Source: JAMORN01 sp027063545 [NCBI: bacterium] (lineage in GTDB: Bacteria > JAMORN01). From it: a DNA stretch of 7,181 nt. Below, piece after piece: positions 3,285-7,181 of this stretch. Positions within the stretch are counted from its first letter, which is position 1, and each line of letters begins with the position of its first letter. The notes beneath the pieces are model-generated. The model saw nothing but the letters and a program-made list of their open reading frames with translations, was not told the origin of the DNA and did no database searches. The stretch lies in NCBI GenBank assembly GCA_027063545.1, contig JAMORN010000137.1, positions 1-7,181 on the forward strand. Direction: 5' to 3'. The translations under genes were made by a program, and so were the position numbers.

Positions 3285-3671
3285 ATGGAAAAACTTTATT
3301 ATACTATAGGTGAAGTAAGTCAACTTCTTGATATACCAGAATCAACAATAAGATATTGGGAGAAGGAGTTCCCATTTATTATTCCTAAAAAAAGGCTTCA
3401 TGGAAGAAGGGTTTATAGAAAAGATGAGATTGAAAAAATAAAACTTATAAAAGAACTTTTATATGATAAAAAATTCACAATAGAAGGAGCAAAGAAATAT
3501 TTTTATAATTTGTATCAAGAGAGTAGTTTATTTAAAAAAGTAAAAGATGTAACCCTCCCCTCTAAAAGATCTAATAAAAGAGGGGAGAATGAAAGAGCAA
3601 AGCTATTAAAAGATATAAAGAAAGAACTATTAAGTATTATAGATTTTTTGGATAACTTCTTTCTCAAATGA
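3285..3671 (+). CDS. Small MerR-family HTH transcriptional regulator
   Basis: Predicted DNA-binding protein of 128 residues. Residues 5-70 form a MerR-type winged helix: [20 protein letters not shown], then EKEFP, the wing [10 protein letters not shown], and [18 protein letters not shown]. This belongs to the branch with the RYWE-x-EFP...P-K-x-x-x-G-R-R-x-Y...TI-x-GA-K pattern, which usually lacks a metal- or drug-binding effector domain. After a polar linker (about 88-102, rich in Lys, Arg, Asn) a helix (103-127) probably mediates dimerisation. There is no cysteine, so metal sensing of the classic MerR type is unlikely. The start at ATG 3285, 4 bases after gpsA, has no good ribosome site (nearest AGAAGG is 17 bases away), so translation may depend on coupling to gpsA. 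Its last 42 bases overlap the end of the opposing chemoreceptor gene. Target genes unknown; its own lipid/Der operon is an obvious candidate, by position only. Confidence 0.88.
3555..3587 (-). terminator. GC-rich hairpin inside merR, possible terminator for the minus-strand operon
   Basis: CTCCCCTCT (3555-3563) and AGAGGGGAG (3579-3587) form a perfect 9-bp inverted repeat around a 15-base A-rich loop, exceptional in this AT-rich DNA. Read on the minus strand it starts 43 bases after the stop of the chemoreceptor gene. The stem can be lengthened by two G-T pairs and an A-T pair and is then followed by TACATCTTTTACTTTTTT, a loose T-rich tail. On the plus strand the tail is purine-rich, so it would not terminate merR transcription. 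Terminator role is inference because the T run is not directly adjacent to the stem. Confidence 0.35.
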
Positions 3672-4607
3672 ATCTAAATTGTCTAATAAATCTTGAGTAA
3701 TAGATGTTAATTCTTTTACTTTTTCTTCTATTTCTTTTTCATTATTGTTCATTTTTAATTCATATATTTCCTTAATTTTTTCATGCCATTTTTCATGATT
3801 TTCTATAATTTGATGATAATATATAGAATCTTCTTTTACCTGTTCAAATATTCCTTCTTCTCTAAATATTTTAGTTAACATACAAGAATTAGAATCAACA
3901 ATTTCAAATTCTTTTATATTATCCAATATAAAAAGTAAAAATTTATATATAGAATTAATATGAACAGATTTTATTGTATCAATTTTTAAAGATATCATAG
4001 AAATTGTAATATCTGAATCTAAAGAATTAGAGTTTTTTAAAATTTTTTCTATCTTAGTTTTTACTTGTTCAAATAATTCAACAGTTTTATCAGATGCTTT
4101 AACCATTTTATCAACAAACTCTTTTAAGTTATCAATATTTTTTGACAATCTTTCAATACTTTCAGAAATAACAGAGGTTACTTCTTTAGTTTTTATAGAC
4201 AGATTTTTTATTTCTTCTGCAATTACTGCAAAACCTTTACCTATTTCTCCAGCACGGGCTGATTCAATAGAAGCATTAAGAGATAGAATTTTTGTCATTT
4301 CAGATATGTTATTTATTAAATCTATTTGTTTTTTTATATTTTCGGTTTCTTTAATAACAAATTCGAATTCCTTTAGTTGTTCTTTTATATTGGTTATTAT
4401 AATATTATTTTCTTCATATAGAGATTCTATTATACTTGTAAATTCCTTTAAAATTGATATATTTTCTTTAGAAAAATTTGAATTTTTTATAATTTTTTCT
4501 ATATTATTTAAAAATTTAGTTTGAAGTTCTTCATTGTATACTGATATAGTCTCTAAAGTTTCAAAAACTGCCTTTAATTCATTTGAAATTATTTTTCCTA
4601 TACCCAT
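3630..4607 (-). CDS. Soluble methyl-accepting chemotaxis-type protein with C-terminal CZB zinc-binding domain
   Basis: A 325-residue protein without any membrane segment, signal peptide, PAS or HAMP domain, so it should act in the cytoplasm. Long N-terminal helices (about 1-100, heptad-like Ile/Leu/Lys/Glu) lead into the conserved chemoreceptor hairpin tip, where CheW and CheA dock: [20 protein letters not shown] (109-128) followed by IAEEIKNLS. The returning coiled coil runs to about 195. Residues 210-290 match a CZB (chemoreceptor zinc-binding) domain: His216, Cys242 in SCMLTKIF, and His271/His275 in HEKWH, the 3-His/1-Cys ligand set of this family. A terminal helix of about 40 residues follows. 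CZB receptors and cyclases of known function sense zinc or oxidants such as hypochlorite through the Zn-Cys site; the ligand here is unknown. A strong ribosome site precedes the ATG, 23 bases after the glycosidase-like gene, so the two are likely co-transcribed. The 3' end overlaps merR by 42 bases. Confidence 0.88.
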
Positions 4608-6212: not shown

Positions 6213-7181
6213 TCATGAATTTAATATAAGCTCTTCGAGATTTTCAATACTTGTTGTAACTATTGGATCAGATAGTTTGAGTTTTTCTTCTATAATTTTT
6301 ATGGAATAATCTATAGATCCTTTAGATTTATTAAAGGTTTGAGCTATATAAGTTTTAGAAACTCCAGCAATATTCTTCAATAAATATATAGTAATATACC
6401 TGATAAGAGTTAATTCCTGTTTTCTAGATTTTGATTTTATTTCTTCAGGATCAATTTTAAAATAATTGGCAACTATATTTAATATTTTAATTGTAGAACT
6501 TATATATGAAACTTCTTCAAATTTCTCTTTTTCTTCTTGTGATATAATTGATTGATTCTCTATAAGTTTTTTTACATTCTCAAAATTCAATTCTAAATTA
6601 AGATATTTATGGTAAAATATTATTTTATTTAATATTCCCTCTAAAACTCTTATATTTTCTTTTTCTGTAATACCAGCAATGTATATTAAAATTTCTTCTG
6701 GTATTTCTATATTATGAATTGTTTTAGATTTATTTCTTAATATAGCCATTCTAGTTTCAAAATCTGGATACCCTATATCAGCTACAACACCACTTTTTAA
6801 ATTTTCAATTAGGTCTTTAGTTATAAACTTTAAATTTTCAATAGGTCTATCAAGTGTAAATATTAACTTTTTATTTTTTTCATAAAGATTTTTATATATC
6901 CTAAATAAGAACTTTTGGGTTTCAGGTTTATTTTCAAAAAATTGAATATCATCAATAATTAAAATATCAATATTTTTATATTTTTCATCAAGATTTATAC
7001 TAGACTTTTTATTTATATAATCAATAAATTCAGATAGAAAAATTTCACTAGTAATATAGAGAATATTTATATTATTATCCTTTTCTTTTACATAATTATA
7101 AATTGCTTGGACTAAATGAGATTTTCCAAGTCCTGTAGGACTATATAAAATAAAAGGATTAAATTCTATGGGTTTATTATA
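6213..7181 (-). CDS. dnaA: Chromosomal replication initiator DnaA or DnaA-like paralogue (N-terminus beyond the window)
   Basis: The frame stays open from the right edge to TGA at 6213-6215, giving 322 residues (numbered here from the edge); domains I-II and the first part of the AAA+ domain are outside. DnaA normally binds origin boxes and opens the DNA as an ATP-bound filament. Visible in order: Walker A SPTGLGKS (14-21), SEIFLSEFI, Walker B ILIIDDIQFF (73-82), sensor 1 TLDR (109-112), PDFETRMAIL (139-148), sensor 2 NIRVLEG (176-182, Arg178), and domain IV from about 229 with SKSRKQ, conserved Arg261 and an HTH. Departures: the first Walker A Gly is Ser14; the box VII R-L-x-S-R-F is KDLIENL (122-128), so no arginine finger; the DHTT box-reading signature is KGSI (287-290). 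The divergent HTH resembles the Thermotoga form as I recall it. The ATG at 6749 is internal, not a start. Fold assignment is secure; whether this is the main initiator is not. Confidence 0.85.
   Translation of the reverse strand, partial: YNKPIEFNPFILYSPTGLGKSHLVQAIYNYVKEKDNNINILYITSEIFLSEFIDYINKKSSINLDEKYKNIDILIIDDIQFFENKPETQKFLFRIYKNLYEKNKKLIFTLDRPIENLKFITKDLIENLKSGVVADIGYPDFETRMAILRNKSKTIHNIEIPEEILIYIAGITEKENIRVLEGILNKIIFYHKYLNLELNFENVKKLIENQSIISQEEKEKFEEVSYISSTIKILNIVANYFKIDPEEIKSKSRKQELTLIRYITIYLLKNIAGVSKTYIAQTFNKSKGSIDYSIKIIEEKLKLSDPIVTTSIENLEELILNS

Follow-up and report, generated by a model that had tools for sequence, protein, structure and literature searches.

A probable diverged DnaA paralogue lacking the box VII arginines in a draft genome bin that also holds an intact dnaA

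The window analysed here is an entire contig, C137, with a length of 7181 bases. It comes from a draft metagenome bin that totals 1.57 Mb, is split into 355 contigs and is estimated at 82.7% completeness and 1.78% contamination; this bin is the sole representative of its phylum among the genomes compared. The plus strand of the window carries ORFs that, from their translations, we take to be der, plsY and gpsA, together with a MerR-type gene recognised by Pfam. An ORF of the DnaA family occupies one end of the minus strand (Table 1). It runs open into the contig end; the N-terminus of the protein is thus missing and the readable part begins inside the AAA+ domain. No partner contig for this end was found in the bin, the best other match being 35 bases at 86%. 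Downstream on the same strand lie a GH3-type gene and a gene for an MCP-domain protein, and there is no dnaA-dnaN locus on that side.

Table 1. Coordinates of the features discussed in the window and on contig C305 (locus L048) of the same bin
Feature	Contig	Position	Strand	Remarks
DnaA-family paralogue	window	6213..7181	-	322 aa readable; domain III, starting shortly ahead of Walker A, and domain IV
Walker A TGLGKS	window	7119..7136	-	residues 16-21; Lys20 retained
Walker B IIDDIQ	window	6942..6959	-	residues 75-80; Asp77 and Asp78 retained
Sensor 1 LDRP	window	6843..6854	-	residues 110-113; Arg retained
Degenerate box VII KDLIENL	window	6798..6818	-	residues 122-128; Arg281 column = Asp123, Arg285 (finger) column = Asn127
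Finger-column codon AAT (Asn)	window	6801..6803	-	codon reading
Sensor 2 NIRVLEG	window	6636..6656	-	residues 176-182; Arg178 retained
Degenerate domain IV signature NKSKGSIDY	window	6306..6332	-	residues 284-292; S-K-G-S-I instead of D-H-T/S-T-V
MCP signalling-domain protein	window	3630-4607	-	
MerR-type gene	window	3285-3671	+	convergent with the MCP gene
dnaA with intact box VII	C305	13065-14117	+	350 aa
dnaA-dnaN gap	C305	14118-14404		
ORF in ATP synthase cluster	C305	1034-1999	-	321 aa

The ORF matches both Pfam domains of DnaA above their curated cut-offs, PF00308 (Bac_DnaA) with 126.7 bits (1.3e-36; cut-off 23) and PF08299 (Bac_DnaA_C, domain IV) with 49.9 bits (3.3e-13; cut-off 31.5). 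Its score against TIGR00362 (NCBIfam DnaA) is 249.5 bits for a cut-off of 343.9, for a protein scored without its start, and the Hda HMM gives 65.9 bits (3.7e-18; cut-off 194.8). An AlphaFold2 model built with 16 sequences (mean pLDDT 82.5, pTM 0.53) retains the box VII helix (residues 122-129) and the recognition helix (287-302). When this model was used in Foldseek, the first 11 matches were DnaA chains, followed by Hda, with TM-scores of 0.48-0.58 for whole chains (large rmsd) and of 0.73-0.74 for domain III alone (by target length); the nearest solved structures are the DnaA proteins of B. subtilis, T. maritima and A. aeolicus. Like DnaA (TIGR00362; PF00308 and PF08299), the window protein consists of domain III followed by a helix-turn-helix domain IV and has Walker A and B motifs and sensors 1 and 2, but it has neither the box VII arginines nor a D-H-T-T-V-type signature. 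Hda, a DnaA-like AAA+ regulator of DnaA that matches the window protein both in structure and by HMM, is not known to have a domain IV, whereas the window protein has one.

All residues of the ATP site that were compared are preserved. As the initial annotation had stated, the Walker A Lys, the Walker B Asp-Asp, the sensor 1 Arg and the sensor 2 Arg are all present in the alignment, the third of these being found in just 68/121 DnaAs with domain IV. Further columns (V211, R227, K243 and R245) were assigned from what we take to be the corresponding E. coli numbering: Lys is retained in the K243 column, and the B-motif column R245 is occupied by Glu, in a family that is variable there (R or K in 58/121). 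The roles of the residues in these four columns follow the available text of PMC5742627. The window DnaA probably still binds ATP.

The state of box VII is very different from that of the family. The alignment bears out the initial observation that KDLIENL stands in its place, with Asp and Asn in the columns of Arg281 and of the arginine finger Arg285; the Asp codon, GAC, is four residues ahead of the finger codon. The stretch from sensor 1 to PDFETR, which had been described as free of gaps, is so against all 45 rows from other genomes but not against the other DnaA of the bin, where there is a one-residue insertion. The near-universality of the two arginines also holds, both being present in 46/46 DnaA rows of the first alignment (the other copy of the bin, 15 named loci and 30 rows from a 41-genome sample). 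A sequencing error had been named as a possible refutation, and a single miscall is excluded because GAC and AAT are each at least two base changes away from an Arg codon.

These proportions were examined in a wider set of 183 distinct domain rows, in which second copies and DnaAs with weak scores were over-represented on purpose; 180 rows span the region from Walker A to box VII, and domain IV is present in 121 of them, including the other copy of the bin. Arg285 is present in 117 and Arg281 in 109 of the 121 rows with domain IV, and Arg285 in 41/59 of the rows without it, so the finger is seldom lost when domain IV is present and more often lost in DnaA-like ATPases that lack this domain. 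DnaAs with domain IV and no finger are thus rare but not unique (4/121): the exceptions, all in other phyla, have Phe in G074, Cys in G023, and Tyr and His in G089 and G229. The second copies of G089 and G229, from one genus, resemble the window DnaA in that they have lost Arg285, Arg281 and the signature His while retaining domain IV; unlike it, they carry an insertion before box VII (profile alignment) and their signature has Tyr for His with the Asp kept. The DnaAs of G023 (one of two copies) and G074 (the sole copy) have domain IV and no Arg285 but, unlike the window DnaA, retain the signature His. None of these four groups with the window DnaA in the tree. When the window DnaA is set beside these 121 rows, it alone combines the loss of both arginines with replacement of the D-H pair, the G089 and G229 copies being the next in kind. 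In G074 (98% complete) the only DnaA match at E <= 1e-10 (L198) reads PRLISFFQKG, with Phe at the finger and Arg281 retained; this protein would be a better candidate than the window gene for a sole initiator without a finger.

A second change, absent from the earlier reading of the sequence, affects the DNA-binding domain. The D-H-T-T-V signature of domain IV, whose His is retained in 112/121 DnaAs with this domain, has become S-K-G-S-I in the window protein. With its DNA signature altered in this way, the window DnaA is probably not a reader of standard DnaA boxes. When all rows are ranked by identity to the family consensus, those that fall below the window DnaA number 0/121 for the box VII stretch, 3/121 for domain IV, 20/121 for the region after box VII and 15/121 for the AAA+ core before it. 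Its divergence is therefore patchy: it ranks lowest in box VII and near the lowest in domain IV, and is less extreme in the AAA+ core.

Spare copies of DnaA were also surveyed in 39 genomes with at least two strong matches. The survey comprises 74 rows, mostly non-best copies: six best-copy loci were omitted, the best domains of G067, G148 and G287 stayed among the 74, and the second copy of G208 (R/R, DHTTV) was left uncounted. The spare copies with domain IV (n=17, all non-best) have Arg285 in 15/17 cases, Arg281 in 11/17 and the signature His in 9/17, so that signature erosion is common among them and finger loss uncommon; rows without domain IV keep Arg285 in 38/57 cases. Two genomes of one family, G148 and G287, have 12 and 10 DnaA-type ATPase domains respectively, and those that were read (L109, L110, L127-L129, L131, L135-L139, L141, L144, L145 and L147) mostly lack domain IV, many of them also lacking the finger Arg.

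A second dnaA with an intact box VII, also absent from the earlier reading, was found in the same bin on contig C305. Its box VII reads KDRIISR and its signature RDHATV, and it is flanked by genes that are presumably parB, parA, rsmG, mnmG, mnmE, yidC, yidD, rnpA and rpmH to one side, with dnaN and recF following on the opposite side, which is the classic origin neighbourhood (rpmH-rnpA-yidD-yidC / dnaN-recF). In contrast with the window DnaA, the C305 protein keeps R281, R285 and DHATV and is encoded at the canonical locus; the two are 36-37% identical, and they share a Lys at the AID1 position R227, a residue present there in none of the other 120 rows. The C305 DnaA is itself atypical. Its length leaves no room for domain I, it has Gln at K243, and its sensor 1 Arg is replaced by Tyr, which means little since only 68/121 DnaAs have Arg there. 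A search of the bin for PF11638 (DnaA_N) at E <= 1 gave no match; the same search exceeded the curated cut-off in only 8/14 control genomes and is therefore not fully sensitive. No cluster of DnaA boxes stands out near the C305 dnaA, so the origin is not placed by boxes: allowing one mismatch, TTATCCACA is found 10 times over the 16.9 kb of C305, a mild contig-wide excess (7/200 shuffles reach it), with one such match within dnaA and zero in the two intergenic gaps, and TTWTNCACA is at chance level. In the window there is no excess of DnaA boxes. The dnaA-dnaN gap of C305, where no site comes within one mismatch of TTATCCACA, is very A+T-rich and contains TATTAACAAATT twice (by eye), possibly a lineage-specific box.

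The initial annotation had left two readings open, a lineage that builds its initiation complex differently or a regulatory paralogue. The intact dnaA at the canonical dnaA-dnaN-recF locus of the same bin, a gene that this annotation had itself suggested looking for, favours the paralogue and makes a lineage-wide change of initiation unnecessary. It is thus probable that the window encodes a divergent paralogue of DnaA, additional to the main initiator of the cell and distinct from it. The unusual features of the C305 DnaA count against this reading, as does Lys129, which could take over part of the finger's function. A regulatory role would be the most likely one.

In our judgement, the window contig and C305 very likely come from one organism. 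Nevertheless, since the bin is a fragmented draft with some estimated contamination, one contig could be foreign. In that case the window would stem from a different organism, one that has no DnaA other than this finger-less protein and initiates replication differently. The 1.78% contamination estimated for the MAG leaves room for such a scenario, and the window DnaA is as close to the best of the Patescibacteria-type DnaAs (L003, 37-39%) as to the C305 DnaA. Yet the Patescibacteria-type loci (L003-L015) were retrieved with patterns that included the DIGYPDFE of the window itself, which biases the set, and box VII is intact in 13/13 of them (11 labelled Patescibacteria-type, 2 just "bacterium"). 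Moreover, the Der encoded in the window matches nothing else in the bin strongly (the best other hit has 61 bits, against 1004), and, as weak support, the twelve nearest genomes of this Der and of the C305 MnmG, among 144 other genomes, have four in common (G098, G045, G058 and G081). The composition of the contigs also fits: G+C is 0.249 in the window and 0.235 in C305, and their tetranucleotide correlations with the pooled bin contigs are 0.916 and 0.941, compared with 0.55-0.94 for 13 other bin contigs (22 contigs were taken, of which 7 had too few readable bases to be used). With an r of 0.867, one Paceibacterota locus exceeds 5/13 of the other bin contigs, so composition is compatible with a single organism without proving it. 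We consider a foreign origin of the window contig unlikely.

No close relative of the window DnaA was found among genome contigs (15 loci, best 38%), viral contigs (10 pattern matches, zero relatives) or phages and plasmids (38 and 52 records, none of which reaches 60%), and no orthologue among 290 genomes (best other genome 39%), a comparison set that holds no other genome of its phylum. The tree was built from 84/123 rows after thinning, with the box VII and signature columns excluded. In a 79-row rebuild the window and C305 DnaAs join each other (SH-aLRT 89, not starred). Both form long, AT-biased branches, and the omission of one moves the other: without C305, the window DnaA joins three Patescibacteria-type DnaAs with an SH-aLRT of 100, a position that agrees with a foreign origin of the contig. 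A count of shared rare residues does not raise the window/C305 pair above other AT-rich or diverged rows. The second copy of G132, which has rare residues in common with the window DnaA, was considered as a relative and rejected, being another diverged paralogue with R285 retained. The two DnaAs of the bin may have arisen by duplication within their own lineage.

DnaA is usually viewed as one protein that both binds the origin and extends along it, in a head-to-tail filament where each protomer offers ATP on one face and the finger on the other. According to the available text of PMC5742627 and PMC10316083, Arg285 of E. coli and Arg251 of T. maritima are needed for cooperative assembly and unwinding, not for ATP binding. 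The T. maritima R251A protein binds ATP and a single box like the wild type but, like E. coli R285A, has lost cooperativity and virtually all unwinding activity (PMC10316083), and Arg281 has a stabilising role in oligomers and is required to load DnaB (PMC5742627). The window protein has kept the residues of the ATP face and lost those of the finger face; it would bind ATP and accept the finger of a normal DnaA while donating none. Having no finger to donate, it could not extend a head-to-tail filament by itself and, as the chain would not be continued past it, it would cap or poison DnaA filaments or else act as a single DNA-bound protein. That it ends or weakens DnaA oligomers, as a cap or an antagonist, is a tentative proposal which we hold to be possible rather than likely. 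Alternatively, it could bind ATP and act as a regulator on DNA, at sites that are not standard DnaA boxes.

Two further scenarios would give both DnaAs of the bin a part in initiation. In the first, a deep bacterial lineage with no other sampled member would have evolved a heteromeric origin machine with specialised subunits, as in clamp loaders and ORC: the C305 DnaA would donate the finger and read the box, and the window DnaA would present ATP and always end the filament, setting its length and direction. We find this doubtful. In the second, the two proteins would be an obligate pair forming a heteromeric initiator, one giving fingers and box reading and the other complete ATP pockets. Their losses are indeed partly complementary, the window DnaA keeping the sensor 1 Arg and K243 where C305 has Tyr and Gln, and C305 keeping the fingers and DHATV; their common Lys at AID1 points the same way. 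Nevertheless, the frequent lack of the sensor 1 Arg in the family deprives its absence of much meaning and the shared rare residues do not single out this pair, which makes an obligate partnership improbable. Equally improbable is a redundant dnaA copy drifting to a pseudogene: erosion has touched domain IV as well as box VII, but the 322 available codons contain no stop or frameshift, all tested ATP-site residues are retained, and the predicted fold is that of DnaA, with DnaA chains and then Hda as its top structural matches. Finally, it is very improbable that Lys129, two residues past the finger column, or Lys122, five before it, replaces the finger in a nearly normal assembly, since that column is Arg in nearly all DnaAs with domain IV, none of the four exceptions has Lys, and the DNA signature is lost as well.

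The window gene is probably a diverged DnaA paralogue. Pairs of dnaA genes exist in Chlamydia. A natural second dnaA is described in Acidaminococcus fermentans, in tandem within an rpmH-dnaA-dnaA-dnaN cluster (PMC4403523, available text); both genes lie there in one cluster, unlike the window/C305 pair, and the likeness lies in the presence of a second dnaA. In the literature on DnaA paralogues, duplicated dnaA, R285A and box VII, no natural DnaA paralogue lacking the finger appears in the titles and opening lines of abstracts among the papers listed, drawn mostly from outside subscription journals. A paralogue with an ATP face and no finger face would parallel in nature the R285A mutant, and it could reveal ways in which bacteria restrict the growth of initiator filaments. 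The absence of the finger from one DnaA does not by itself imply a different initiation in its lineage, and the whole genome needs to be checked before such a conclusion.

Two other ORFs were noticed on these contigs. The MCP signalling-domain protein of the window matches MCPsignal alone in Pfam; its C-terminal part has spaced His and Cys residues that look by eye like a CZB zinc-binding domain, and the end of its gene overlaps the convergent MerR-type gene by 42 bases. On C305, the ORF in the ATP synthase cluster resembles a subunit c with four fused hairpin repeats (by eye).
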